From: Streptococcus salivarius
GTDB taxonomy: Bacteria; Bacillota; Bacilli; Lactobacillales; Streptococcaceae
Reading direction: 5' to 3'
DNA length: 64,000 bases
Assembly (NCBI RefSeq): GCF_009738225.1
Contig: NZ_CP018187.1
Location: 1,374,501 to 1,438,500 of the forward strand
Under the pieces are notes generated by a model. That model did not search any database, was not told the DNA's origin, and worked only from the letters and a program-made list of their open reading frames with translations. Numbering within the stretch: the stretch's first letter is position 1; each line of letters starts with the position of its first letter. Positions 1 to 14,148 of this stretch are shown here, in pieces. The translations under genes and the position numbers were made by a program.

Positions 1-2647
1 CACTTTTACCTAAGAGATTAGCTGATTCAGCCATTTGTTCTGTTGATGTGCATTTTAGAAGGTTATGAGCTTCTTCAAGCACAGTGATGTGTTTTAATTC
101 GGCATTCATATCTCCACTAGTCATGCGATACTCTTGCAATTTCAAAACCAAAATCCCCATTAGCAAAGATTTAGTCTCAGTGGAACCAACTCTACTGAGG
201 TCAACGATGACATTTGAATCAAATAGATGCTCATTGGTGAGTTCATCATTTGAAAAGATTAGGCCATTAATTCCATTTGTCAGAGATTCGATTCGAGTTA
301 ATAAAGCTCCCTTGTAAGCACCTTTATTCTCATCATCATATTCACTGGAATCAATTATCGTCTTAATATTATCTGCTATATCATTGAAATTTGGATACAG
401 TCTACCATAAGGGTTGGTTGATTCAAGGAGATTCCATCCACAATCCTGATAAGATTGTTCTACAGCTTTTTTTAAAACCGCTGGCATAGCCGCATACATC
501 GGCCAGCACACATTGAAAATTTCGACTAGCCTATCTAGATGCTCTAAGATATGAATTTCTTTAGGGAAACTAAAAGGATTCAACCTCAACAAAGGTGTTA
601 ACTGAGGATTCGTTCCATAAACTGAAACATCGTCGTGATTACCAAAGACATGCTTATATTCTCCTTTTGCAGGTTCAACAACTAGGAATTTCAAGCCATT
701 CTTTCTACCTTCATTGAGGAGTTGATAAATCGTATTACTCTTACCAGAACCCGTACTTCCTGTTACAAAAACATGCGAAGCCAAAGAGTTTTGTCTAAGG
801 TTAACAGGTACATCTTCCTTATGATACATATGGAAAATATCTCCTAAATGAAGCATCTTATTAGTAACATCTTCTTCATCAAATTTAGCAATATTTCGTC
901 CGAACTCTGCACACTCTAAAATCGGTAGTCCTGGAATAGATTTTCTAGGGAAGTTCAATGAAAAGGCCAATTCTTGACCAGTAAGAGGTACTGTTGGAGT
1001 CACAATAGATGGATAGACATTAAAGGTTGAATCAGCTAATAGCAGATTAGGATTCAGTCCAAATAAGGGATGGCGTAATTCTCTTAGATAAGCAACTATT
1101 TCTTCTGCATCACCACTGCTCTCACCCAAATCTCCTCTCCATAAATTAACTGAAGACTGACTCATAAATGACTCTTCTCCTTGGGTCAAGGCTAAGTATG
1201 TATGAGCAACATTATTCGCAATATTCTGGTCTTCACTGAGTACATAGGCAGCGAACTCCCACATACCCATAGCTGTTCCTTTTTCAAAACGTTTCATCTG
1301 TTCTTCAAGGACCTTAAGGGCGTGGGAAATATTATGATTGGTAAAGGACTGGGTAATGCCCTCGTTCTTACCAATAGTAGCAGTCACATTTGAGGCACGC
1401 GCAAAATTAGCACCGATATTAGAACCTAAGTTAACACCACTTGAAGAGCCCAAGGTTTGTCCAACCGTTTGAGATAAGGCACGACTAGCGGTTTTAGCGA
1501 GGGCACGGCTAACAGTTTTTGTAGTCGATTGACCAATAGAGTCTGCAGTACTTGTTCCATGATTTTTAGAGTAATGATAGTCAACAGTTGCTCCCACTCC
1601 AAATGGCGTCCCTTCAAGACTGCCACCAGTAGTATGTGATGATCCTTTATTTGTTCCATCTGTATGAGATGTATTGGTACCATCCGTTTGTCCAGACGAA
1701 TCCGTTTGAGATTGACCACTAGTTTGCGTATCACCAGCAGATTGGTTAACTGATTGATTCTTACCATGTTGGATACCAGCACTGGCTCCAACATTGACTC
1801 CAAAAGTAGCCATGGAGGTCGTTGCATCTGAAGCTGTGAAAGTATAGTTGGTTTGCCATTTTTCATAAGGCGCTAAGGCTGAAAATAGCTCAGATAAACG
1901 TAACTTTCTATTTTCTATATCCTGAATAGGACTTGCTAAAAGGATTAAGGTATAGTTTTCGGATGGTTCTGACGGAATGATGCCATCTATCAATTTTTCA
2001 ATGGTTTGACTGATAAATTTTTCAGATTTGGCAGTTGGTAAATTAGACACCGTTGCCACCGAATAAGGCTTAGAGTTTGCTAGACAAGGAATCCTACCAA
2101 TTCCCTTTTCATTCTGGACTGTAGATCCAGGAAAGTTACCTTTAATGGCTTCTAACAATCGCTTGCGATAATTTTCGACATTGACATTATCAGAATCATT
2201 CTTAGTATTTACTACAGCCAGAAAAACTTCTGTATTGGTCTCAGTTCGATTGAAGACGAGAGCAATATTACAGTCTTCGTTAGAAAGTACTTCATAGACA
2301 TTAACTAGTTTTTCTAAACTATTTTCTTTTTTGTCAACGACCCATTTTGTGATATTGAAATACCTGATATTATATGATTCCTGAAAGTCTGTACCAAATT
2401 CTACCTTATTTTCGATAGGAACATAGAGTTCTTTTATCTGTTCCAAATACGAATTGAAAATCTCTACTCCACATGAAGCTAATAAGCGATTCGTTAATTC
2501 CTCATCACTAATATTAGGTTGATCAGCTAGATATTTCTCTCTTTGCTCCTCAACTTGTTTAAGTTGCTCTGGGCTCAAAGCTGAAAGTTTCGCAACCTTG
2601 TCTGCAGCCTTAGCTCCTGCCTTATTAATAATGTTTTTTATTCCCAT
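1..2647 (-). CDS. HerA/FtsK-type P-loop ATPase, 3' end outside window
   Basis: The frame is open from an ATG at 2647 to the window edge, giving at least 882 residues without a stop. A Walker A (TGSTGSGKSNT, about residue 630) and a Walker B-like acidic motif (ITVLEEAHNLL, about residue 855) are visible, with VVEPAKGEYK and IVDLSRVGS between them. This pattern is that of the HerA/DUF87/VirB4-like ATPase group, DNA or protein pumping motors that work as hexamers. The N-terminal 290 residues are not recognised. Residues about 290-420 are a Gly/Ser/Thr/Gln-rich stretch. The start follows the dynamin-like gene stop by 19 bases with a GTGGGTG ribosome site, so the two are almost certainly cotranscribed. 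The exact role is unknown; nuclease, NurA or SIR2 partners, if any, would lie beyond position 1. Confidence 0.85.
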   Translation of the reverse strand, partial: MGIKNIINKAGAKAADKVAKLSALSPEQLKQVEEQREKYLADQPNISDEELTNRLLASCGVEIFNSYLEQIKELYVPIENKVEFGTDFQESYNIRYFNITKWVVDKKENSLEKLVNVYEVLSNEDCNIALVFNRTETNTEVFLAVVNTKNDSDNVNVENYRKRLLEAIKGNFPGSTVQNEKGIGRIPCLANSKPYSVATVSNLPTAKSEKFISQTIEKLIDGIIPSEPSENYTLILLASPIQDIENRKLRLSELFSALAPYEKWQTNYTFTASDATTSMATFGVNVGASAGIQHGKNQSVNQSAGDTQTSGQSQTDSSGQTDGTNTSHTDGTNKGSSHTTGGSLEGTPFGVGATVDYHYSKNHGTSTADSIGQSTTKTVSRALAKTASRALSQTVGQTLGSSSGVNLGSNIGANFARASNVTATIGKNEGITQSFTNHNISHALKVLEEQMKRFEKGTAMGMWEFAAYVLSEDQNIANNVAHTYLALTQGEESFMSQSSVNLWRGDLGESSGDAEEIVAYLRELRHPLFGLNPNLLLADSTFNVYPSIVTPTVPLTGQELAFSLNFPRKSIPGLPILECAEFGRNIAKFDEEDVTNKMLHLGDIFHMYHKEDVPVNLRQNSLASHVFVTGSTGSGKSNTIYQLLNEGRKNGLKFLVVEPAKGEYKHVFGNHDDVSVYGTNPQLTPLLRLNPFSFPKEIHILEHLDRLVEIFNVCWPMYAAMPAVLKKAVEQSYQDCGWNLLESTNPYGRLYPNFNDIADNIKTIIDSSEYDDENKGAYKGALLTRIESLTNGINGLIFSNDELTNEHLFDSNVIVDLSRVGSTETKSLLMGILVLKLQEYRMTSGDMNAELKHITVLEEAHNLLKCTSTEQMAESANLLGKS

Positions 2648-2666
2648 ACGATTCACCCACAAAAAG

Positions 2667-5141
2667 CTATTTCCAAGTAATCATTTGTTTAATCTGGTTA
2701 GTATAATTTTCAATCTGTTGCTGCTGCTCCTCTAAGCTTGCAACTTCGTTTCTTGTTCTCTGAATTTTCGTATTTAAAGCACTCAATTCTGGACTAAATT
2801 CAATTATATTTTGAACAATTATACTTGTAAGATTTACTAGCCAAATTTTAAAAGCTTTCTCGTGTTCCGAACAAATACTTCCTGCAAATTCTGTCATCTT
2901 TGATTTAAATAAATCATTATAGGTCTTCTTAAGGCCAGATGCGTTAACTTTACTTGATTTCAAAGTAAAGTCTCCCAATCTAAAGACATAACTAAGTTCT
3001 TCTTTACTAAACTTTTCAAGATTTAATTGAGTAAAATCTACCTCTTCATAAGATAAAATCAATTGAGAAAGCTTTTGACGTTTTTCTGGTTCAAGTCCCA
3101 TATCACCTGAAATAATACGCTCAAAATGAGATTTTATCTCAGAAGCATGATTAGACCAAAAACTGCTAGAAATACGTTCAAAGTCTACCCTTGAAAAATA
3201 AAGTTCTTCTACAAATTTATTTCTAAAATAATCAACTGTTTGTGCAGAAGCTAGATTCTCTAAATTGATTTTCTTTGTCTTGTTCTCACGTGTAACACTG
3301 AGATAGTTACTAAACTCATTACTGATATTTCCTAATTTTAGATTACTAATATCAATTTGTTGATGCTCAGTTAAATTTAAAGTTGGATTTAATGAGAGTA
3401 TCTCTTTGTGTATTTCATTATAACGATCTAAAACATCATCTTTTTCAATGTGTTTCATGAGTTGCTCTTGAAAAATTTTCATTTCCTTTGGATACTTGAT
3501 CAAAAGGTCATTTTTTTGGGATAATGAAATGGATTTCAATCTTTCAACAATGACAGATTTTTGGCCATCAAGATTAGCCTCTAATTCTGCCTCTCTAATA
3601 CGTAAATCTTCGTTTTTCTCTGTAATTACTGCATTTGTTCTCAATAGTAGTTTGTCTAATAGAGCTTTTGCCTGTTGACACTTGTCATAGTGTGAGTAGC
3701 GGTCAACAAAGGTTTTAATAGAATCTTCAATGGTTAATAAACCACTATTTGCATAAATAAGGTCGGAACTTTTTTCAGCAGTTGCTCGAACGGTACTAGA
3801 CATTTGTCTTGGAAGAATGTCAAACTCATACAACTTCTTATAGTATTTTGTTTCAGGATTTGAGTATTTTTCTCTATAAGTATCAAATTGCTCAGAGTAG
3901 AATTCTCCCTCTAAATGCCCATTTAACTTCGCTCCAAGTCCTAAAATTGATGAAACGTAATAAATGCCTTGAGCATACAACTCTCTAGGAACGGCTTGAT
4001 TCATAATCTTATTTCTAAATGAATCACGTTTAAAATTTGTCAAGCTCAAATCTGCTGCCTCGGCCTTATTAACCACAATCATTGTGAACCGTTCATCTAA
4101 ACCTTCTACTGAAATAAGCTTTTCTTTTAAATTACTATTATCAGTGCTGTCTAAGGAACTACTATCAGTAACAAAGACTGGCAAGCCATTTGACATACCA
4201 GCCATGGCATTAGCTAGGACTTCTGAATGTTTACTATTAGTTGATGAATTAGAACCTGGAGTGTCGAATATCGTAATTTTTGAACCTACATCTCCTAAAA
4301 TACCTTTTGAAAATGGGACAAGTATTTCGATTAAATCTCCAACACCTTCGTCAGCAAAATCATTGATTACTTCTAAAACTGCACGTAGCTTTGAAATGAT
4401 TGAATCAAAAGAATCATTCAATATTTCATTTATTTCCTTACCAAATGCATCAGTCTCATTTAGTCCATCATAAAACACTTGATCATCATGGAAAGTAAGA
4501 ACAACTCTATCATCTTTAAATATAAAAGAGATTTTAGCACGATCTTCATAAGGACTAGCTGTGACCTTATAAATTTTAGCAGTCACAGGAATCTCAGCAC
4601 TTGGAAGTAATTCCTGTCCAATCAAGGCATTAATAAAGGTCGACTTTCCTGCACTATAAGTTCCGAGCACACAGATAGGAACTGTATCTCCCGAAGCATC
4701 CGAAAAGCGTTTTAACTGTGCTTCAATTTCCTTGTTGCTCTCACCAATATTCTTTATAATCAGTGGCTCAAGATTTCTAAAAATACGATTAATTTCTGGC
4801 AGAACATCACGTGCATTCTCTAAATAGTTTGTTGATGATGACAAAATAATATTTGAAAACCGCTCATCTTTTAAAGCCTCTTCTAACTGTTGCTTCTCAT
4901 CATTAGGCCCTTCAAAAATTAATTCTAGTTTTTCATCAGGAATAGAATATTCATTTTCAATTTCTTTTAAAATATCATATACCTTAAAGGGAAAAAAGCC
5001 ACGTTGAAAAACGGCTGAAACTAGCTTGCTATTTGAGTTATTATCACTATTTATTGTCACCCAATTATCACTAGATAAGTCGTAGCGACTGAAAGTTACT
5101 GTCTTTTCGTAAGGATTACTTACTACTTTAATTTTATTCAT
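2667..5141 (-). CDS. Dynamin-like large GTPase, 824 aa
   Basis: The GTPase motifs are in order: G1 GTYSAGKST (about residues 160-168), a G2-type threonine in PVTAK, G3 DTPGSNSS (about 293), and G4 VNKAEA (about 357), which departs from the usual NKxD/TKxD. Residues 1-145 form an N-terminal region that is not recognised. After the GTPase domain, long helical segments continue to a C-terminal coiled coil rich in Gln and Glu. No signal peptide or clear transmembrane segment is visible. The length and layout fit bacterial dynamin-like proteins, which remodel or tether membranes and in some cases act in phage defence or toxin secretion. It is the first gene of an operon with the downstream HerA-type ATPase. 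The start is supported by GGAGTAA 7 bases upstream. Function here is inferred only. Confidence 0.85.
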   Translation of the reverse strand: MNKIKVVSNPYEKTVTFSRYDLSSDNWVTINSDNNSNSKLVSAVFQRGFFPFKVYDILKEIENEYSIPDEKLELIFEGPNDEKQQLEEALKDERFSNIILSSSTNYLENARDVLPEINRIFRNLEPLIIKNIGESNKEIEAQLKRFSDASGDTVPICVLGTYSAGKSTFINALIGQELLPSAEIPVTAKIYKVTASPYEDRAKISFIFKDDRVVLTFHDDQVFYDGLNETDAFGKEINEILNDSFDSIISKLRAVLEVINDFADEGVGDLIEILVPFSKGILGDVGSKITIFDTPGSNSSTNSKHSEVLANAMAGMSNGLPVFVTDSSSLDSTDNSNLKEKLISVEGLDERFTMIVVNKAEAADLSLTNFKRDSFRNKIMNQAVPRELYAQGIYYVSSILGLGAKLNGHLEGEFYSEQFDTYREKYSNPETKYYKKLYEFDILPRQMSSTVRATAEKSSDLIYANSGLLTIEDSIKTFVDRYSHYDKCQQAKALLDKLLLRTNAVITEKNEDLRIREAELEANLDGQKSVIVERLKSISLSQKNDLLIKYPKEMKIFQEQLMKHIEKDDVLDRYNEIHKEILSLNPTLNLTEHQQIDISNLKLGNISNEFSNYLSVTRENKTKKINLENLASAQTVDYFRNKFVEELYFSRVDFERISSSFWSNHASEIKSHFERIISGDMGLEPEKRQKLSQLILSYEEVDFTQLNLEKFSKEELSYVFRLGDFTLKSSKVNASGLKKTYNDLFKSKMTEFAGSICSEHEKAFKIWLVNLTSIIVQNIIEFSPELSALNTKIQRTRNEVASLEEQQQQIENYTNQIKQMITWK

Positions 5142-5172
5142 AATTACTCCGATTATTTAAAAATACAAGTGT

Positions 5173-5178
5173 ATTATA
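5173..5178 (-). promoter_or_regulatory. Extended -10 promoter of dynamin/HerA operon
   Basis: Reading the minus strand, TGATATAAT gives a perfect -10 hexamer with a TGn extension, about 30 bases upstream of the dynamin-like start. No good -35 is seen, as is common for extended -10 promoters. Confidence 0.6.
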
Positions 5179-5262
5179 TCACAGCAAATGGTTTTCTGTA
5201 TGCGCTTTCTATAAAATCTAACTATTTTTATTTATCTAATGTTTAACTCATTTTCTACCCCA

Positions 5263-5296
5263 CATAAAAATCCCACCACATATTATGTGATAGGAT
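5263..5296 (-). terminator. Rho-independent terminator after brnQ
   Basis: A 13-bp stem with two G-U pairs (ATCCTATCACATA on the minus strand) is followed by five T residues. It closes the brnQ transcript and insulates the dynamin/HerA operon. Confidence 0.7.
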
Positions 5297-5303
5297 ATTA
5301 TTT

Positions 5304-6632
5304 TTATTCCATTTCGAAGCTTTCGCTCTTAATCTTATCAGGTAAGATGAGAGACAAAAGAATACACAAGATGGCTGGTATCAACCATGGCAGTGATGCT
5401 CCCGACAATGGGAGGAAGTTAATGAGGGCATTGAGTCCCGCAAGTTTAAACTGGCTTCCAATTACACTAAGCAAGGCAATCAGCGTGACTACTGCAACTG
5501 TCACTTGCATGCCAGGTTTAGACAAGGCCACGAACTTATTGGCAATCACAATCATAACAATCGTGATAGTAATTGGGTAGAGAATCAAAAGCACTGGTAC
5601 TGAGAAAGCAATGATATTGTTAAGTCCCAAGTTGGCAATCGCAAACCCAATCAAGGTAAAGATAATGGCGTAAGCCTTGTAAGATACTTTCGGAAATGCC
5701 TTGTGGAAGAATTCCCCAGTCGCAACAATAAGCCCTGCGGTTGTTGTGAAGCAAGTCACTGTCACCATGATAGCTAAGAAAATCTGAGCCGCTGGTCCAA
5801 AGATGGCTTGTGTGGCTTGTGACAAGACACTTGCACCAATATTGGCATCTTTTGGTAATCCCGCTACTTGGAGTGGGAAATGATTCCCCAAAAAGGCTAA
5901 TCCCAAATACAGAGCACCAAAGAGGATAGTAACTACGAAACCAACGACCCAAATCGTTGAGATATACTCTTTTTTAGACTTGAAGCCTAATTGGTTGAGT
6001 GTGACTACTGCTACTACACTGAAGGCCACAGAAGCCAAGGCATCCAAGGTGTTGTATCCTTCCAAGAAGCCTTTACCAAAAGCAGAAGCCTGATAGGCTT
6101 GACTTGCATCCTGAGGATTGTGACCAACATATTTAAATGCTCCTGCCACGATAACGACAACAATCATGATGGCAAAGATAGGCGTCAATATACGTCCAAT
6201 ACTATCTAGAATTTTAGATGGATTCATGGCAATCCAAAGTGCTAGAGCAAAGTAGATTACGGTAAAGACAAAGAGCCAAAGGCTAGTATGTCCACTTCCA
6301 ATCAAAGGAGAGAAGCCAATTGAAAAGGCGGTGGCGGCCGTTCTAGGAATGGCAAAGAAAGGACCAATGGACAGATAAAGTACTGCCAAATAGACTAGAG
6401 CAAACTTAGGCGAGATTTTTTGAGAAATCTCATGAATGTAACCCTTAGGATTTAAAGTCCCGATAACCAGTGTTAGGATGGCAATACCAACACCTGATAG
6501 GACAAAGCCGGCAATGGCTGGCCAAAAATGACCTCCAGATTCAAAGCCTAACTGAGGGGGAAAGGTCAGGTTTCCCGCTCCAAAGAACATACCAAACAAC
6601 AATAAAGCTGTAAGGCTTCCCTTTTTTAACAT
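5304..6632 (-). CDS. brnQ: Branched-chain amino acid Na+/H+-coupled carrier BrnQ
   Basis: The 442-residue product is hydrophobic throughout, with about 12 membrane spans. It opens with LLLFGMFFGAGNLTFPP, the signature opening of the LIVCS (BrnQ) family, which imports leucine, isoleucine and valine with a cation. The family length is about 440 residues, so the gene is complete. The ATG at 6632 is chosen because GGAG lies 8 bases upstream; an in-frame TTG at 6644 would overlap that ribosome site. The gene is monocistronic, with its own terminator downstream. No T-box or other riboswitch is visible in the short leader. Confidence 0.92.
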   Translation of the reverse strand: MLKKGSLTALLLFGMFFGAGNLTFPPQLGFESGGHFWPAIAGFVLSGVGIAILTLVIGTLNPKGYIHEISQKISPKFALVYLAVLYLSIGPFFAIPRTAATAFSIGFSPLIGSGHTSLWLFVFTVIYFALALWIAMNPSKILDSIGRILTPIFAIMIVVVIVAGAFKYVGHNPQDASQAYQASAFGKGFLEGYNTLDALASVAFSVVAVVTLNQLGFKSKKEYISTIWVVGFVVTILFGALYLGLAFLGNHFPLQVAGLPKDANIGASVLSQATQAIFGPAAQIFLAIMVTVTCFTTTAGLIVATGEFFHKAFPKVSYKAYAIIFTLIGFAIANLGLNNIIAFSVPVLLILYPITITIVMIVIANKFVALSKPGMQVTVAVVTLIALLSVIGSQFKLAGLNALINFLPLSGASLPWLIPAILCILLSLILPDKIKSESFEME

Positions 6633-6802
6633 AAGTTTCTCCAATCTAAAACAAACAAGATCTTATGCCCCAAATAGACACAACTTGTTTATTATAATTT
6701 TAGTCAACTTATTTAGTATGACATGATTAGTTTGGAACTTCAAGCTATTGAAACGTATTTACAAAGGTTTTTAAAATTGCAAATTTTCTGTATCCTTGTA
6801 CG

Positions 6803-6836
6803 AAAAAACTAGACAAGATTCTCATCTCGTCTAGTT
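6803..6836 (-). terminator. Terminator after manA
   Basis: An 11-bp stem (CTAGACGAGAT paired with ATCTTGTCTAG, one G-U) has a four-base loop and six T residues on the minus strand. Confidence 0.85.
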
Positions 6837-6847
6837 TGATATTTTGA

Positions 6848-7789
6848 TTATGGGTGACTGACAATCAGTTCAAGCTCTCCCTTAATTTGCCATGTTTCAA
6901 CATCGCTAGGAAGAATAAAGTGGCTGCCTTTTGCAATTGGGTATTCTTGATCATCGACTAAGAGGCTTCCTTGACCGTCAAGTACACTAAACAAACTGTA
7001 ATCAGCAGTCTTTTCAAAATCAGCCTTACCTGAGATTTCCCATTTGTAAACGGCGAAGAAATCACTTGCTACTAAGAGCGTTGATTTGAGGTCATCTACT
7101 TTTGTTGTGACTGGTCGACTGTTGGCTGGCTCACCGATAGTAAGCACGTCGATAGATTTTTCAAGATGGAGTTCACGCAGGTTACCTTGATCATCTTTAC
7201 GGTCAAAATCATAAACACGGTAGGTCGTATCACTAGATTGTTGCGTTTCAAGAACCATGATACCTGCACCAATAGCATGCATGGTACCACTTGGCACATA
7301 GAAGAAATCACCTGCTTTAACTGGAACCTTAGTCAAAAGATTTTCCCAATCCTTACTTTCAATTTGCTGACGCAGTTCTTCTTTTGATTTGGCATTGTGG
7401 CCATAAATAATTTCAGCACCTGGTTCAGCAGCAATGATATACCAACACTCTGTTTTACCAAGCTCACCTTCATGTTCAAGTCCATAAGCATCATCTGGAT
7501 GGACCTGCACACTAAGCCAATCATTGGCATCCAAAATCTTAGTCAAAAGTGGGAAGACAGGTTCTTGACGATTGCCAAATAACTCACGGTGCTCTGCATA
7601 AAGAACATCTAAAGTTTGACCGGCATAACGACCATTCTTAATGGTAGAAACACCATTTGGGTGAGCAGAAATAGCCCAGTACTCTCCGACATGGTCGCTT
7701 GGAATGTCGTTGCCAAAGACATCACGCAAATGCGTACCGCCCCAGATTTTTTCTTGCATAACAGATTGTAAAAATAATGGTTCAGACAT
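6848..7789 (-). CDS. manA: Mannose-6-phosphate isomerase, class I
   Basis: This 313-residue cupin enzyme interconverts mannose-6-phosphate and fructose-6-phosphate in the cytoplasm. The zinc site is visible: QVHPDD (residues 95-100), the glutamate of GKTECWYI (114) and the histidine of PSGTMHAIG (171). A second, C-terminal cupin follows. The length matches the short Firmicute form of the family. The start is fixed by AAGGAG 8 bases upstream. The gene stands alone between a terminator and the divergent DUF3290 promoter. It would feed mannose imported by a PTS into glycolysis and supply mannose-6-phosphate for glycans. Confidence 0.95.
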   Translation of the reverse strand: MSEPLFLQSVMQEKIWGGTHLRDVFGNDIPSDHVGEYWAISAHPNGVSTIKNGRYAGQTLDVLYAEHRELFGNRQEPVFPLLTKILDANDWLSVQVHPDDAYGLEHEGELGKTECWYIIAAEPGAEIIYGHNAKSKEELRQQIESKDWENLLTKVPVKAGDFFYVPSGTMHAIGAGIMVLETQQSSDTTYRVYDFDRKDDQGNLRELHLEKSIDVLTIGEPANSRPVTTKVDDLKSTLLVASDFFAVYKWEISGKADFEKTADYSLFSVLDGQGSLLVDDQEYPIAKGSHFILPSDVETWQIKGELELIVSHP

Positions 7790-8101
7790 AATTACTCCTT
7801 TTTCTAGGAACGAGAGGCCTTAACATTTTTTGGAATTCAAGAAAAGGTGTTGACTCTCTTAGAGATTAACAGTGAAGTCTTACATAAAATAACCAATCTC
7901 TTTAAGTTACCAGACTTCTGATTCTCGAAAAATTTAGGCAAGTTCTGATTGTTGATTACCTCAATTATAAGCATAATTTGTGAAAATATCAACAGAGTCC
8001 TTAAAGAAATCATAAGATTTTGGCTTAATGGCTGCAAGTCATTTCAATAGCAAATTTCCTTTAAGAATCCTACTTATTCCTTCATTTTTCGGATAGTTTG
8101 A
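7790..8101. other. Intergenic gap, AT-rich, no gene supported
   Basis: This is the 5' region between manA (leftward) and the DUF3290 gene (rightward). A 66-codon minus-strand frame at 7837-8037 has no family resemblance and no ribosome site. Nothing else is called. Confidence 0.5.
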
Positions 8102-8130
8102 TTGAATTTAAAGACTTTTTAATCTATAAT
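8102..8130 (+). promoter_or_regulatory. Promoter of DUF3290-DUF421 operon
   Basis: TTGAAT, a 17-base spacer, then TATAAT. Transcription would begin near 8137, which rules out the in-frame ATG at 8098 and supports the start at 8161. Confidence 0.8.
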
Positions 8131-8160
8131 GTTAGTGATATTATGAAAGGAAATCTCTCA

Positions 8161-8613
8161 ATGAAATTCTATTCCTACGACTATGTGCTAAGTCAGATTA
8201 GCCAACAAAACTGGGTTATGGTTGCCATTACTGCAGGACTTATTTTAGTGACCGGCGTATTTGCTTTTAAGGCCTTCAAAGAACGCCATGATACTAAGTT
8301 TCGTGAACTCTCTATTATTTCTATTTTAACCTTAGTTGCCGTGGTTCTAATTGCTATCAGTAATTTCCAAAGCAATCAATCAAACGATAACCAATTTAGA
8401 GCATCTCTTCACTTTATCGAGATTGTGTCTAAAAATCTCGACGTTGATAAGAGTAAAGTTTATGTCAATACTTCTACTACTACAGATGGTGCTATCCTCA
8501 AAGTTGGAAACAAATACTATCGTGCCATCTCAGGTTCAGAACCTGACAGCTACTTGCTAGAACAAATAAAAATTTACAAGTCTGATGTTGAACTCGTGGA
8601 GGTTAAAAAATGA
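8161..8613 (+). CDS. DUF3290 family membrane protein
   Basis: The 150-residue product has two N-terminal membrane spans (about residues 19-37 and 50-67) and a C-terminal soluble part carrying a GAILKVGNKYYRA segment. This is the DUF3290 layout, a family of unknown function found in lactobacilli and streptococci and usually encoded directly before a DUF421 protein, as here. The ATG at 8161 has GAAAGG upstream and lies downstream of the promoter, whereas the longer frame from 8098 would start before it. The stop overlaps the next start by four bases (ATGA), indicating translational coupling. A role in envelope stress is inferred from context only. Confidence 0.85.
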   Translation: MKFYSYDYVLSQISQQNWVMVAITAGLILVTGVFAFKAFKERHDTKFRELSIISILTLVAVVLIAISNFQSNQSNDNQFRASLHFIEIVSKNLDVDKSKVYVNTSTTTDGAILKVGNKYYRAISGSEPDSYLLEQIKIYKSDVELVEVKK

Positions 8614-9242
8614 CATCTTTTTATCTTACTGTTGCAATTAAACTAGCTTTGGGGCTTATTTCACTCGTCTTTGTTATCAATTTAACAGGTAAAGGAAACC
8701 TAGCACCTAGCTCAGCTACTGACCAAGTACAGAACTTTGTTCTTGGTGCAATCCTCGGTGGTACAATTTATAGTAGTACCGTTTCAATCCTCCAATATAT
8801 CGTGATTTTGATTATTTGGACGATTTTGATTTTACTTCTAAAATGGCTAATTACCAATATTCTCTTTATCAAACATTTGATTGACGGTAAACCAACTGTC
8901 ATCATCAAACATGGTCAACTAGATCCTGAAGCTTGTCGCTCTAAAGGACTTTCAGCCTCTGATGTCGCTTTAAAATTACGTTCCCAAGGAATTTTTCAAC
9001 TTAAAGAGGTTAAACGTGCAGTTATTGAACAGAACGGCCAATTGATTGTGGTTCGTGCGGGTGATGAAAATCCGAAATACCCAATCGTTACTGATGGGGT
9101 CATTCAAACAGAAATTCTTGATACTATTGGTAAAACGGAGGATTGGTTAAATGAAGAGCTTCAAAAAATGGGATATGACAACATTTCAGATATCTTCATC
9201 GCTGAATATGATAAAGGAAAGATTAATGTTGTCACTTATTAA
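8610..9242 (+). CDS. DUF421 (YetF-type) membrane protein
   Basis: The 210-residue protein has three N-terminal hydrophobic spans (to about residue 92), then a cytosolic module with DGKPTVIIKHGQLD and LKLRSQGIFQLKEVKRAVIEQNG. These are the hallmarks of DUF421/YetF-like proteins. The gene is translationally coupled to the DUF3290 gene. Members are linked to spore or general stress physiology in bacilli, and the biochemical function is unknown. The downstream CsbD gene has its own promoter but continues the stress theme. Confidence 0.88.
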   Translation: MTSFYLTVAIKLALGLISLVFVINLTGKGNLAPSSATDQVQNFVLGAILGGTIYSSTVSILQYIVILIIWTILILLLKWLITNILFIKHLIDGKPTVIIKHGQLDPEACRSKGLSASDVALKLRSQGIFQLKEVKRAVIEQNGQLIVVRAGDENPKYPIVTDGVIQTEILDTIGKTEDWLNEELQKMGYDNISDIFIAEYDKGKINVVTY

Positions 9243-9251
9243 ACAAAATAC

Positions 9252-9280
9252 TTGCATTACCGTTTAATATTGTCTACAAT
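9252..9280 (+). promoter_or_regulatory. Promoter of csbD-like gene
   Basis: TTGCAT, a 17-base spacer and TACAAT lie just after the DUF421 stop, followed by AAAAAGGAGG before the ATG. Confidence 0.75.
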
Positions 9281-9308
9281 GGTCTCATCATAAAAAGGAG
9301 GTTCTATC

Positions 9309-9506
9309 ATGGGAATCGAAGATAAATTGAATCAAGCTAAAGGCGCTCTTAAAGAGGGTGCTGGTAAACTGACTGGCGACAAAAAGACTGAAGTCGAAGG
9401 TGCTGTCGAAAAAGTGGTAGCAAAAGCAAAAGACGGTATCGAAGATGTTAAAGAAGGCGTTGAAGGTGCTGTTGAAGGCCTTAAAAATGCTTTTTCTAAA
9501 AAATAA
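9309..9506 (+). CDS. CsbD family stress-response protein
   Basis: The 65-residue, highly charged helical protein begins [24 protein letters not shown], which is the CsbD signature (partially quoted: [16 protein letters not shown]). CsbD-like proteins are small, abundant and induced by general stress; their molecular function is unknown. A strong AAGGAGG lies 8 bases upstream. An ideal promoter and terminator frame the gene, so it forms a separate, probably highly expressed, transcript after the DUF3290-DUF421 pair. Confidence 0.93.
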
Positions 9507-9514
9507 TAATAAAT

Positions 9515-9557
9515 AAACAGAAGCTCTTTTCCTTTTTTGAAGAGGGCTTCTGTTTTT
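9515..9557 (+). terminator. Terminator after csbD-like gene
   Basis: AAACAGAAGC pairs with the GCTTCTGTTT arm, extended by AAGAG/CTCTT pairing, and ends in five T residues. It may also serve the convergent surface-protein gene. Confidence 0.85.
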
Positions 9558-9577
9558 CTTTATGTTCTTAACTAGAA

Positions 9578-12124
9578 TTACTTACGAGAATGCTTGCTTC
9601 CTTTTAAGGCAAATGAGGTTGTCATCATAACTGCTCCTAATGCGCCTAGTCCCAAACTGCTCACATCACCAGTATTTGGTAGACTTGATTTACTTGTTTG
9701 ATTGCTTTGTGAACTTTTAGATGACTGATTAGCCTTAGAACTTGTTTGGGTATTTTGTTTCTGAGCAAGATTAGTTTGTACGACTGAGCTTACATTTTCC
9801 TTTTGACTCACGCCTACATGACCTTTTGATGCTTCAGAAGTTTGTTTTTGAGTAAGAATATTATCCAATTTCTCAGCAGTCTCTTGAGCTTGTTGTTGGG
9901 CACTGCTTGTCGCATTAGTCATTGTTTGTGTCGGTTGCTCTTTTGTAGGCTGGTTAGCAAGAGAGGTATTTGATTTAAGAGACGCTCCTTCAGAGCTTGA
10001 AGAATTTGATGTTGGCGTATTTTGATTTGATAAAGCTGTGTTTGTCGCTGTCATTGCTGGAGCATTGGTAGCTGAACTTGTACTACTTGTGCTATTTGTA
10101 TTCTCAGAACTTGTCGAAGCAGATTGGCCCCACGGTGTGTTTACGCTTCCGGTATTGGTAGAGCTTCCCCCATAGCTAGTCGGTCCACCGTAGCCTCCGA
10201 AGTTATCAGACATTGAGCTATTGCCAAAGCCACCGCCTGGGAAGCCGCCCATGCCACCAGCACCAGGACCATTGTTTGTGCCTTCTTCAGTAGCTGTTGC
10301 AGTCACACTAGCACCACTTGATGTCGTAATGGTATAGGTTTCACCCGAAGTTAGACTCTCGGTACTAAAGACCACATTTCCAAATGAAGTTGTTGCTGTT
10401 GTGGTCGCTACAACATTTCCAGAACTATCTGTAACTGTGATGGTATCTCCAGCACTACCAGAGATGTTGGCCATGATATAAGACTGGCTTGAACCCGTTG
10501 TAAAGGCCTGAGCCATTCCTTGGTTACCTATGGCCCAAACGGTACCGCCAGAAATAATACCTGTTCCATCGTAGTCGATAGCAGCATTATCTGCACTTGT
10601 CTGAGCGACGTAGAGAGAACCACTTTTCACTGTCACATTGCCGTTACTGTCGATACCATCACCGTCTGCCAGAATAGTTACCGTTGCACCGTCAATATTG
10701 ATGCCCACTTCATTTTCCAAGTCAGAAGTCGAATTGGTTAAGCTTGAAGTATCAGCGCTGTCCTTGGTCGTCCACTCAGTGGCGTTAATACCATCATCAC
10801 CAGCAGTGATATCAACGGTTCCACCTGTCAAATTGATATAACGCCCTTCAAGGCCTTCGTCACCTGCTACAACTGTTACTTTAGAATTGCCTTCGACAGT
10901 CAATTCATCTGTAACCGTGATACCTTTATCAGTTGCATTAATGGTTACCGTTGAGTCGGTAATCGTCAAATCACCACTGTTCACATCTGTTTCGTCTTCG
11001 ACCTGAATACCGTCATCAGTTGCCGTGATGTTGACTGTGGCATTTTTAATAGTTACAGCTTTCGTCGCATTGATACCATCCTTTGCCTCAGAAGTCAAAT
11101 CAAGTGTTACAGAGTCAACCGTTACACTGTCAGCCTTGATGGCGTGCTTTTCAGTGCTTGAAAGGGTCAAGTTACTTCCAGTACCACTGGTAATGGTCAA
11201 GGCTCCCGCTGCTTCAATCGCATTAGCAGACGTCGAAGAAATAGAACTGTCTGAAAGGACATTAACAGTCAATTCTGCTGAAGAATTGGAAGTAATAGAC
11301 GAATCCGTTAAGGTCACACCATCCAAGTAGATTGTAACTGGATCTGTCACGCTACCTGACACAATAATGGTATAGCTTGAACCATTTCCGGTCAAAGTGT
11401 ATGATCCTGCTTGATTGATGGTAATTGTCGTTCCATCAACTGTGACAGTACCGCTATCACTTGTTACCACGGTTGTTCCATTGAAAGTAATCGTTGTCGT
11501 TGAGCTTTCTGAATCACTATCTTCAGACTCAGTTGTCGTCGTTTCAGTAGCTGAATCTGAGGCGCTGTTGGTTAACACTGAAGCTGTTTCAGATGCAGTG
11601 GCTTCAGTGGTGCTTGAGCTTGTATTAGAGCTAGTGTTTTCGTCTGCATTGTTCGTTTCAGATGCTGAGGTTTCACTAGTTGTGCTTTCAGCAGTTTCAG
11701 AAGAACTTGCTTCTGGAGTTGCGGAAGTACTTGAATGATCAGATGTTTCACTGCTTGTTGATGTAGCAGTCGTGTCCTCTGTCGTACTTGTTGTACTTAT
11801 TGTACTTGTTGATGATGAATCAGTGTCTGAAGTTGAAGCCGCAGTTGAAGTACTTGTAGCCGATTCTGTGCTTGTTTCAGTAGTTTCTGATGTATTGTCG
11901 GTCTGAGTACTTTCTTCAATTAAATCAGCAGTGGTTTCACCTGTTGAAACCGTTGAGAGTGTTGATTCAGTGTTTGTCTCGTCTGCTGAAACCTTGCTGT
12001 CATTTAAGACAACTGAGCTACCAAAGATTAAGCTTGCTACCAGGACTGAACCTGCTGTTTTCCATTTTGATGATTTCTTAATGGCATAACGTTCTTGTGT
12101 TTGTTTGCTATGTTTGTATGTCAT
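9578..12124 (-). CDS. LPXTG-anchored DUF4353-type carbohydrate-binding-domain surface protein
   Basis: The 848-residue protein has a signal peptide (cleavage likely after VSA, residue 47). A Ser/Thr/Glu-rich stalk runs to about residue 215. A long repetitive beta-rich region with GDDGINA, DDGIQVED and DGDGIDSNG motifs (about 215-560) marks the DUF4353 carbohydrate-binding domain. A Gly-rich segment (GGMGGFPGGGFG), a second low-complexity stalk and a C-terminal sortase signal LPNTG (815-819) with hydrophobic and basic tail follow. It should be covalently attached to peptidoglycan by sortase A. Its ligand is unknown. The ATG is preceded by GAGGTAG. Upstream lie 11-bp-spaced TTTAAG-like hexamers suggesting CiaR control. 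Confidence 0.9.
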   Translation of the reverse strand: MTYKHSKQTQERYAIKKSSKWKTAGSVLVASLIFGSSVVLNDSKVSADETNTESTLSTVSTGETTADLIEESTQTDNTSETTETSTESATSTSTAASTSDTDSSSTSTISTTSTTEDTTATSTSSETSDHSSTSATPEASSSETAESTTSETSASETNNADENTSSNTSSSTTEATASETASVLTNSASDSATETTTTESEDSDSESSTTTITFNGTTVVTSDSGTVTVDGTTITINQAGSYTLTGNGSSYTIIVSGSVTDPVTIYLDGVTLTDSSITSNSSAELTVNVLSDSSISSTSANAIEAAGALTITSGTGSNLTLSSTEKHAIKADSVTVDSVTLDLTSEAKDGINATKAVTIKNATVNITATDDGIQVEDETDVNSGDLTITDSTVTINATDKGITVTDELTVEGNSKVTVVAGDEGLEGRYINLTGGTVDITAGDDGINATEWTTKDSADTSSLTNSTSDLENEVGINIDGATVTILADGDGIDSNGNVTVKSGSLYVAQTSADNAAIDYDGTGIISGGTVWAIGNQGMAQAFTTGSSQSYIMANISGSAGDTITVTDSSGNVVATTTATTSFGNVVFSTESLTSGETYTITTSSGASVTATATEEGTNNGPGAGGMGGFPGGGFGNSSMSDNFGGYGGPTSYGGSSTNTGSVNTPWGQSASTSSENTNSTSSTSSATNAPAMTATNTALSNQNTPTSNSSSSEGASLKSNTSLANQPTKEQPTQTMTNATSSAQQQAQETAEKLDNILTQKQTSEASKGHVGVSQKENVSSVVQTNLAQKQNTQTSSKANQSSKSSQSNQTSKSSLPNTGDVSSLGLGALGAVMMTTSFALKGSKHSRK

Positions 12125-12186
12125 ATGTTCTACCTCTTACTTACTTTTGAGATGCCTCTATTAAACACAAGAAACCTAAGACAAGA

Positions 12187-12214
12187 CTTAAAGAAAGGTT
12201 AATCTTTCCTTAAA
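12187..12214 (-). promoter_or_regulatory. CiaR-like direct-repeat operator upstream of LPXTG gene
   Basis: On the minus strand TTTAAG, N5, ATTAAC, N5, TTTAAG occur at exact 11-base intervals, with a weaker TCTTAG one interval further on. The CiaR consensus in streptococci is NTTAAG-N5-WTTAAG. A TTTAAT -10-like box follows downstream. CiaR binding is inference. Confidence 0.5.
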
Positions 12215-12246
12215 GTAAAAAAAGTCCCCAAGATATTGGGAACTTT
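12215..12246 (-). terminator. Terminator after ASCH gene
   Basis: AAAGTTCCCAA pairs with TTGGGGACTTT (one G-U), followed by a T run on the minus strand. The hairpin touches the stop codon of the ASCH frame. Confidence 0.75.
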
Positions 12247-12689
12247 CAATCTCTAGGATAGACTACTCTAAATTCTTCTAAAACAACTAGACTGTCCTGA
12301 CTAAAATGTAATCCAACCTCTTCCAACCAATTGCTAAAGAGATTCTCATGAATCTCTTGCCAATAGGTTAGCCCACGGTCTCCTTCACCTTCCTTGTAGG
12401 CATGGTCTTTAGAAACCTCTTTAAATGGGATGACCTCAACTTTCGTCGTTTCAATAATACAAATAGCATTCTCCTTACTATCAAGAATGACGCTCAGTTC
12501 ATTTTCCTTGGGCAATGGTTCATTCCCCACTGCATACAAGTCAAAAGCTGAACTGGTTGCTGTCTTTTGCCCCATCAATACGAGTTCTGCCAAATAATCT
12601 GCTTCCACGCCAAAGGCCCAGGCATCAATCTTATCTCCGATTGTCTGATTTAAAATCTTATAGGCTTGCTACATCTGGTCTGATTTCAT
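12246..12689 (-). pseudogene. ASCH domain protein with amber codon at position 7
   Basis: From the ATG at 12689, which has a good AGGAG ribosome site, the frame reads MKSDQM, a TAG stop (12669-12671), then QAYKILNQTIGDKIDAWAFG and on through a complete ASCH domain to 12246. In relatives known to me the residue at this place is tryptophan in an MWQAYK context, so a TGG to TAG change is the simplest cause. Without the stop the product would be 147 residues, the usual family size. The ASCH fold resembles PUA and is thought to bind RNA or modified nucleosides. A shorter product could start at GTG 12608, but that lacks a ribosome site and the first helix. Likely a recent nonsense allele. Confidence 0.75.
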
Positions 12690-12726
12690 CAATCTACTCC
12701 TGCTTTTACTCTCCTTCCATTATATC

Positions 12727-12757
12727 AAAAAACGCTAGATTATCAGACCTAACGTTT
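12727..12757 (-). terminator. Terminator after APC permease
   Basis: AACGTTAG pairs with CTAGCGTT (one G-U), followed by six T residues on the minus strand. Confidence 0.75.
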
Positions 12758-12762
12758 TCATC

Positions 12763-14148
12763 TTAATACTTAGAATGTTTGTAACCGTAAAAGGCATAGA
12801 TCGCTGACCCAATTAGCACTGCCAAACCAAAGGTTAACCATGTCTGCCAACTGTACTGACTCATAAAGGAGAGGCAGACGATAATTGAAATAATGGGCAA
12901 GACAGGAACAAATGGAACCTTAAACTCATCCTTCTGTGGCAAACCCTTGTCCTTACGAAGAATAATGAGGGCAATAGCCAAGAGGACCAAGTAAGCCAAG
13001 GTCGCAATGTTAACCAAGGATGCCATATTGGCCAAAGAGAAGATACCTGCTGAGATAGCTGACAAAACGCCTGTCAAAAGCGTCGCATGATGTGGAACCT
13101 TATTAGTCTTTGAAACCTTTTGGAAGGTTTGAGGAAGGAAACCATCACGCGCCAGGCTATAAACCATACGGCTAAGGGCATAGGCCATTGAGATACATAC
13201 CGTAATCAAGGTCATAATAGCAACCACTGATACGTAGTTGGCTGCCCAAGAAATACCGATATAGCGAAGGGCATAAGCCACAGCATCATCAACATTCAAC
13301 TTGGTATAGTGAACCACTCCTGTCAAGACGAGAGAAACCACTGCATAAAGTGAAGCCACAATAATCAAGGCAAGAACGATACCTCGAGGAACGTTCTTTT
13401 GCGGCTCTTTAATCTCGTCTACGGTCATAGAGATAGACTCGAAACCAAGAAATCCAAAGAACATGAGAGAGGCTCCTGCCATAATCCCAGTTTTTCCTCC
13501 ATAAATCTGACCAAAGCCAAATGGTGCAAAATCTGCCCAGTTGCTAGGATTCAAATGGAAGAGCCCCACTAAGATGAAGACCGCCAAGGCTGAAAACTTG
13601 AGCACTACCAATAGGGAGTTCAAACGTAAAGCCTGCTTGGAATTCATGAGAAGAAGAGCCGTCACCAAGACTAAGACCAAGACTGGCAAGAGGTCTATGT
13701 AAGTACCTTGACTGGGATTGAAAGGTCCACTGATGGCTTGAGGCAACTTAAGACCAAAGCTAGCCAGCAGCCCCTTGAGGTAAGCACCCCAACCAGAGGC
13801 AACACTGGATACGGCATTCATAAAGACAATCATGGTCAACCAGCCACCCATCCAGGCAGGATACTCCCCCCAGACAGCATAGAGGTAACCATAGACACCA
13901 CCGGCTGATGGGTAACGTGAGGCAAACTCGGCAAAGAAAATCGCTGACATCCCAACACACACGGCTGAAATCAAGACTGAAATAATCAGGGCAGGACCAG
14001 CCAGAGTCGATGCCGCGGTACCAGTAATCGTAAAGATTCCTGTACCAACCATGGCACCGATTCCCAGAAGGACCACATCCCTAAGGGTCAGATGCCGTTT
14101 CATCTCAGTCTGAGCGAGACCGACATCCTTTTTACGAAAAATACTCAT
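12763..14148 (-). CDS. APC-superfamily amino acid permease (CAT type)
   Basis: The 461-residue protein has about 12 membrane spans. The family motif GIGAMVGTGIFTITG occurs in span 1 (about residues 30-44). FFGFLGFESISMTVDEIKEPQKNVPRGI around residue 230 (quoted in part: FLGFESISMTVDEIKEP) is typical of cationic or branched-chain amino acid transporters of the YfnA/BcaP group. The substrate cannot be fixed from sequence. The start is supported by GGAGTAT 8 bases upstream. The gene has its own terminator. A short stretch homologous to its central part survives on the minus strand at 20483-20692. Confidence 0.88.
   Translation of the reverse strand: MSIFRKKDVGLAQTEMKRHLTLRDVVLLGIGAMVGTGIFTITGTAASTLAGPALIISVLISAVCVGMSAIFFAEFASRYPSAGGVYGYLYAVWGEYPAWMGGWLTMIVFMNAVSSVASGWGAYLKGLLASFGLKLPQAISGPFNPSQGTYIDLLPVLVLVLVTALLLMNSKQALRLNSLLVVLKFSALAVFILVGLFHLNPSNWADFAPFGFGQIYGGKTGIMAGASLMFFGFLGFESISMTVDEIKEPQKNVPRGIVLALIIVASLYAVVSLVLTGVVHYTKLNVDDAVAYALRYIGISWAANYVSVVAIMTLITVCISMAYALSRMVYSLARDGFLPQTFQKVSKTNKVPHHATLLTGVLSAISAGIFSLANMASLVNIATLAYLVLLAIALIILRKDKGLPQKDEFKVPFVPVLPIISIIVCLSFMSQYSWQTWLTFGLAVLIGSAIYAFYGYKHSKY

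Follow-up and report, generated by a model that had tools for sequence, protein, structure and literature searches.

HerA-type ATPases and dynamins are both known from phage defence, and the bacterial dynamins LeoA, which is named for toxin output, and IniA have been linked to the output of vesicles or toxins. In Gram-positive bacteria, the type VII (ESX)/LXG systems use an FtsK/HerA-superfamily motor to export polymorphic nuclease toxins, a topic also covered in PMC3482391. Polymorphic toxin systems in general have a constant trafficking end, a variable C-terminal toxin domain and an immunity gene downstream, with nucleases and SUKH proteins; the same paper (PMC3482391, Biol Direct 2012) describes their trafficking via the type VII (T7SS, with FtsK/HerA), type IV (T4SS) and type VI (T6SS) secretion systems, PVC and others, with no mention of dynamin found in it, and neither dynamin nor DUF87 was found mentioned in PMC7159879 (eLife 2020). 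Here we analyzed an operon of a dynamin-superfamily GTPase and a HerA/VirB4-like ATPase at the left end of a 64,000-nucleotide stretch of the Streptococcus salivarius chromosome (contig NZ_CP018187.1, positions 1,374,501 to 1,438,500; hereafter the window). A dynamin beside a HerA ATPase resembles phage defence, but the neighbourhood of the pair in relatives points to toxin warfare. No paper describing the dynamin–ATPase pair was found in the open-access literature searched, with preprints and most subscription papers outside that scope, and the initial annotation likewise knew of no named system. The operon probably represents a polymorphic toxin system with an apparently undescribed trafficking module.

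The GTPase and the ATPase are probably the part of a polymorphic toxin system that stays constant, while its toxin and immunity genes are swapped among relatives. The locus set comprised 70 loci from a scan with a GTPase alignment in one genome per species, and two from a viral collection (L071 and L072, which share an identical GTPase and count as the same). In 68 of these 72 loci the ATPase follows the GTPase, with a median gap of 12 nt; of the remaining four, L051, L052 and L063 break off within the GTPase or shortly behind it, and L067 has only a fragment. So close a pairing that recurs in 68 loci is not due to chance. Thus, the initial annotation was right to treat the pair as one unit, and the rarity of adjacent homologues that it had allowed for was not observed. 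In L060, L064, L066 and L068, a gap of 356-912 nt holding a small extra protein separates the GTPase and the ATPase.

The further genes suspected left of position 1 were indeed seen in relatives, where the operon runs GTPase, ATPase, toxin and immunity gene, sometimes with a second toxin/immunity pair. In 63 loci the sequence continues for 700 nt or more behind the ATPase, and 61 of them hold a cargo open reading frame (ORF) of 165-300 aa there (exceptions L005 and L069), followed in 59 of the 61 by an ORF of 80-190 aa (exceptions L016 and L035). In 54/61 loci the cargo start lies between -30 and +5 nt relative to the end of the ATPase, which suggests translational coupling. A Pfam scan at E 0.1 covered 26 downstream proteins, namely 15 cargo proteins (one from the distant L103) and 11 partners. 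The cargo matched LHH, WHH/Colicin-DNase, Endonuclea_NS_2 (EndoNS), Ntox15 or a DUF6782 metallopeptidase, with no match above the cut-off for the cargo of L004, L007, L018 and L068. Most of the 11 partners matched SUKH, YezG-like or DUF6985 families; those of L004, L010 and L068 had no match and that of L007 a weak one. Moreover, the partner family tracks the toxin-domain family whatever the class of the ATPase: EndoNS goes with partner cluster c6 (11/11), fam3 with c8 (8/8), the metallopeptidase with c5 (17/18), LHH with c13 (5/6), c28 with c29 (3/3) and WHH with c3 (21/29), the remaining eight WHH toxins being followed by c31 (3) or by other clusters (3), or having no plus-strand ORF behind them in the locus (2). 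This pairing and the cassette layout are marks of polymorphic toxin cassettes. By analogy with its relatives, the window strain would have its own toxin/immunity cassette beyond position 1.

The two closest genomes among those searched (L077 in G001 and L100 in G107) show the order transporter, GTPase, ATPase, 197-aa toxin-like protein, 125-aa protein and a gene that we take to be msrAB. In L100, Pfam gave WHH at E 1e-7 and Colicin-DNase at E 4e-7 for the 197-aa protein, and the 125-aa protein is a borderline DUF6985 match (24.4 bits against a cut-off of 24.5), which the related protein of L099 passes.

In terms of fold, the GTPase is a member of the dynamin superfamily, having the G1, G3 and G4 motifs and a G domain with a helical stalk, and the initial reading of a large GTPase from these motifs is borne out by Dynamin_N (Table 1). 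Its AF2 model (mean pLDDT 82) is matched by the folds of SynDLP, mitofusin and BDLP over about residues 109-823; unlike SynDLP and BDLP, it carries an additional domain at the N terminus and almost always has the ATPase next to it. The Eleos system (LeoA/LeoBC) also has bacterial dynamin GTPases, but no LeoA and LeoBC lie side by side here: the window has one dynamin, with a weak and partial PADLOC match to LeoA (E 2e-6, profile positions 11-89 of 559) and a match to LeoBC at E 0.0018, and in relatives an ATPase and a toxin cassette accompany the dynamin.

The HerA/DUF87-like nature of the ATPase, with its Walker A and B motifs, likewise stands. Its model aligned with VirB4/TrwK of type IV secretion (PDB 8rtd, 7o43, 4ag5) over residues 79-989, that is, the motor fold and the N-terminal region, and with HerA mainly over the motor, which also matched the DNA translocases DndH-C, HerA and FtsK. 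In contrast to VirB4/TrwK, the window-type ATPase has a Ser/Thr/Gly-rich insert, whose length varies among relatives (alignment A2), a cargo-linked helical C-terminal domain and a dynamin partner. VirB3, VirB6, VirB8, VirB10 and a relaxase were absent from the 26 downstream proteins and from the 25 of 83 Pfam families listed for 105 upstream genes, in flanks of at most 8 kb and without a dedicated search. The NurA-HerA, SIR2-HerA and DUF4297-HerA defence systems share the DUF87/HerA motor by Pfam and fold; however, the alignment is mostly limited to the motor, the partner here is a dynamin, and neither SIR2, DUF4297 nor NurA was matched in the 26 downstream proteins (Pfam, E 0.1). At the same cut-off, no WXG100 or LXG domain was found in the 15 cargo proteins scanned, a search that did not extend to further T7SS genes. 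Judged from the folds, membrane action of the GTPase and a hexameric ATPase are plausible.

The C-terminal domain of the ATPase, predicted to be all-helical and mostly confident in the structure model, fell into three classes when the last 115 residues were clustered by average linkage: class I with 34 loci, class II with 25 and class III with 3, plus one S. salivarius-type allele each in classes I and II. These classes depend on the choice of clustering, since single-linkage BLAST merged classes I and II. At the cargo N terminus, two leader types were recognized, the K leader (FKEIKPE type, often followed by an FWD motif) and the R leader (FDPDKRI type, in up to three copies), and LPE-type repeats were noted by eye in class III cargo. 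Leaders were scored at a BLOSUM score cut-off of 20 in all ORFs of at least 150 aa within 2 kb. Class I loci had the K leader in 26 cases, the R leader in none, both in one (L044, via its second cargo) and neither in seven (among them L005, which lacks cargo); class II loci had the R leader in 20, the K leader in one (L014) and neither in four; none of the three class III loci had a leader at the cut-off. The association of K and R with class gave a Fisher value of 2e-12, a figure that ignores relatedness and includes several near-identical locus pairs.

Because the leader seeds came from the same loci, two controls were examined. Within WHH toxins, class I had the K leader in 9/15 and the R leader in none, and class II the R leader in 10/14 and the K leader in none; within EndoNS toxins, K was found in 9/9 of class I and R in 2/2 of class II. 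The c28 family, present once per class, had the class-matching leader in classes I and II, and weakly so in class III. Second-cargo metallopeptidases were less tidy, with a K leader at the cut-off in 8/17 of class I. One leader type is joined to different domains, K to WHH, EndoNS, fam3 and the metallopeptidase, and R to WHH, EndoNS and LHH. Class predicted the leader in 7/7 new members (L077, L100, L098, L079, L101, L135 and L136); the other seven of the 14 further loci either repeat earlier ones (L099, L102, L133 and L134) or are too distant to class (L103, L124 and L137). On the GTPase tree, made by a quick method, the class changes at least nine times, with four or five changes forced by well-supported branches. 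Taken together, the cargo leader seems to follow the class of the helical C-terminal domain, which would bind the leader and thereby act as the cargo receptor. The system differs from other polymorphic toxin systems in its trafficking part, here a short linear leader tracking the class of a VirB4-like ATPase that has a dynamin as its partner.

The two main classes also occur among the 120 S. salivarius-type ATPases listed, most of which are 1133-1139 aa long, with a class I tail in at least 31 and a class II tail in at least 81. P0127 and P0148 are identical at 975/976 positions up to a boundary and 25.9% identical beyond it, compared with a mean of 21.8% and a maximum of 29.8% in shuffles. 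A near-identical body with an unlike tail shows that the putative receptor domain is exchanged wholesale on an unchanged motor, and we predict that the toxin and immunity genes travel with the swapped domain. The 882-residue ATPase fragment of the window differs at 2-3 positions from the class I alleles P0121-P0123 and at 6 from the class II allele P0125; since P0121-P0123 are nearest and P0125 is close, the window strain is likely, though not certain, to have a class I domain and a K-leader toxin. The homology search named no R-leader toxin from S. salivarius.

From the sequence, namely the operon in relatives, the toxin and immunity families, the leader/receptor covariation, the receptor swap and the predicted folds, we infer, as the most probable reading, a ring, leader binding, unfolding, export and the killing of rivals. 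A small toxin would be made beside the ATPase, often from an overlapping start, and the helical C-terminal domain of the ATPase would grip the short leader motifs at its N terminus. Next, the motor of VirB4/HerA type, which presumably forms a ring, would strip the toxin from its immunity partner, unfold it and thread it through or to the membrane, at a site that the dynamin GTPase may shape, tether or seal. The toxin would finally reach a competing cell, a relative, the immunity protein shielding siblings. That this amounts to a new type of bacterial secretion, in which a dynamin and a VirB4-like ATPase with a swappable receptor reading FKEIKPE-, FDPDKRI- and LPE-type leaders export small nuclease toxins against competitors, is a bolder reading, to which we give slightly less than an even chance.

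Several observations weigh against this reading. The GTPase frame is split in L006, L012, L049 and L058, as well as in L098 and L136, whose genomes are single contigs; either the GTPase is dispensable or some of these splits are errors. Hydropathy showed a strongly hydrophobic stretch within residues 1-100 in only three of 92 cargo-size ORFs, all three being later ORFs and not first cargo; the other 89 lack one. No envelope channel or wall hydrolase conserved with the pair was found, and only 4/68 loci hold an intervening gene, the protein of which has a strongly hydrophobic, transmembrane stretch. In the fold comparison, HerA rows equal or beat full VirB4 by E-value and Z, VirB4 being favoured by aligned length only. 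As for the leaders, the motif rule has exceptions in L014 and in the second cargo of L044, the seeds were picked after viewing the same loci, and many of these are close relatives. The seven correct predictions amount to about four independent cases because L077/L100 and L079/L101/L135 are close relatives, and five of the seven loci had been viewed before the prediction test. A tree-based pair test gave two independent pairs on supported branches (none opposite) and five on all branches, which is not significant and underpowered.

The chief rival, which we regard as unlikely, is intracellular defence by abortive infection, in which the immunity protein silences the nuclease until the pair detects a phage, perhaps at the membrane, pulls the leader and frees the toxin to kill the infected cell. 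PADLOC matches of the window pair to mad8 (E 2e-9) and many HerA models, besides the weak LeoA match, speak for it. Upstream, where 105 of 119 candidate genes were scanned, Pfam gave four kinases, four WYL domains and one BrxL, of which WYL and BrxL also fit defence; the top PADLOC matches there are apparently kinases and WYL regulators, and at E 1e-15 none of the 85 PADLOC families (25 of 85 listed) matched more than three of the 105 genes, a count that has no background rate. However, matched diversification of toxins with SUKH, YezG-like and DUF6985 partners is typical of cell competition (PMC3482391). Export is preferred because of this matched toxin/immunity diversification and the VirB4-like aligned length. 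The phage-defence role considered in the initial annotation is unsupported and was set aside, since toxin/immunity cassettes follow the ATPase in relatives and the defence signal upstream is weak.

Less probable still is release instead of translocation, in which the ATPase only loads toxins or keeps them unfolded, and the toxins leave either in vesicles budded by the dynamin or by lysis, with the dynamin controlling how the membrane ruptures. The clear dynamin fold, the lack of a conserved channel protein noted above and the window proteins would fit, the latter having no strong transmembrane stretch (top 19-residue hydropathy 1.25 for the GTPase and 1.41 for the ATPase; 1.91 and 2.22 among relatives). 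A cargo-class domain on a VirB4-like motor nevertheless fits threading better than bulk packaging. A nucleic-acid mover of the HerA/VirB4 type, or a membrane-repair unit, with the toxin and immunity genes as an addiction cassette keeping the locus, is very improbable: although the motor matches DNA translocases and another species has unrelated genes at the same chromosomal site, an addiction cassette needs neither a leader that follows the C-terminal class of the ATPase nor a second cargo with a K leader.

If toxin export is correct, Gram-positive bacteria, including common commensals of mouth and gut, would own a competition machine distinct from T7SS: a dynamin would drive or guard the passage across the membrane, and a single exchangeable domain of the ATPase would determine which cargo is taken. 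A class of bacterial dynamins would also gain a clear role in physiology, and cargo recognition could be tested by means of short peptides.

GTPase loci were found in Streptococcus, Carnobacterium, Lachnospiraceae, Oscillospiraceae, Erysipelotrichaceae, Coriobacteriia, Bifidobacterium, one Spirochaetia assembly and others, which by record titles represent Bacillota, Actinomycetota and Spirochaetota. The ATPase is present in 15/284 Streptococcus species genomes, two of the 15 being a distant variant, and at E 1e-40 in 8/398 phylum-level genomes, five of the eight being partial, distant matches. Such sparse occurrence rules out a housekeeping pair, and the possibility of core genes kept throughout the species, raised in the initial annotation, falls with it. 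The chromosomal site is also variable, since a further species (L118 in G166) carries about 9 kb of unrelated, metabolic-looking genes (about 3859 to 12969) between the msrAB-like gene and the transporter.

Table 1 Features of the GTPase–ATPase operon in the window
Feature	Position	Strand	Remarks
Dynamin-superfamily GTPase ORF	2667-5141	(-)	824 aa; extra N-terminal NPY domain; Pfam Dynamin_N E 6e-20
GTPase N-terminal domain, residues 1-108	4818..5141	(-)	Conserved NPY, FFPF and FEG motifs (alignment A1, 16 sequences); strands and helices in model
G1 P-loop GTYSAGKST	4638..4664	(-)	G160, S163, G165, K166 and S167 invariant in 56 GTPases
G3 motif DTPG	4254..4265	(-)	Invariant across 56 GTPases
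G4 motif NKAE	4059..4070	(-)	N358, K359 and A360 in at least 90% of 56 GTPases
HerA/VirB4-like ATPase ORF	2-2662	(-)	Open at left edge; Pfam DUF87 E 1e-12
ATPase coding part from ATG (MGIKN) at 2647	2..2647	(-)	First 882 residues; C-terminal part left of window
Ser/Thr/Gly/Gln-rich insert, ATPase residues 267-432	1352..1849	(-)	Predicted disordered; pLDDT <50, mostly 20-35
ATPase Walker A GSTGSGKS	737..760	(-)	Alignment A2, 51 sequences
ATPase Walker B region ITVLEEAHN	62..88	(-)	Alignment A2, 51 sequences
Extended -10 TGATATAAT upstream of GTPase	5173..5181	(-)	Visible on reading the sequence
Terminator-like hairpin between transporter-like gene and operon	5270..5296	(-)	Scan of 351 bases

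In the window, the GTPase and the ATPase are 19 bases apart, as the start of the ATPase and the stop of the GTPase place them and as had been annotated. The extended -10 promoter and terminator of the initial annotation stand in part: the -10 is visible and a hairpin lies where the terminator was expected, but a strict two-hexamer scan upstream of the GTPase returned no promoter. The 351 bases scanned hold two terminator-like hairpins, against 0.1 in shuffles. The transporter-like gene beside the operon (5304-6644) we take to be of the BrnQ type, and the first 8 kb of the window match genome G001 at 93.6%. Further along, the window encodes an 848-aa Ser/Thr-rich protein (9578-12124, (-)) with a C-terminal LPNTG cell-wall anchor motif.

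More distant relatives vary the theme. L122 and L123 have a diverged dynamin, an ATPase, an LHH toxin and a SUKH protein, and L124 has two tandem dynamins, a small protein that ends in a hydrophobic tail and an ATPase, with a WHH-like toxin and a SUKH-like protein by eye. L103 (4279-10473) encodes a 558-aa partner with an N terminus resembling the NPY domain, no Pfam match and no visible P-loop, an ATPase in which a hydrophobic, glycine-rich stretch takes the place of the Ser/Thr-rich insert, and a 505-aa EndoNS_2 protein with Gly-zipper matches; L137 looks like it, and both represent a distant variant in streptococci. In L119, L121 and L023:2437-7686, the ATPase relative is followed by a glycine-rich amphipathic protein of 235-316 aa and a protein of 175-247 aa, not by a nuclease and an immunity protein, and the protein upstream in L119 has no Pfam match and a DFGGGTTDF motif, which we take to be Hsp70/actin-like. 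LHH toxins P0278-P0338, two of them named Treponema denticola, have other short N-terminal repeats, such as DDDLAPE, DSYIE and DISELDKPL, and may belong to further leader classes.

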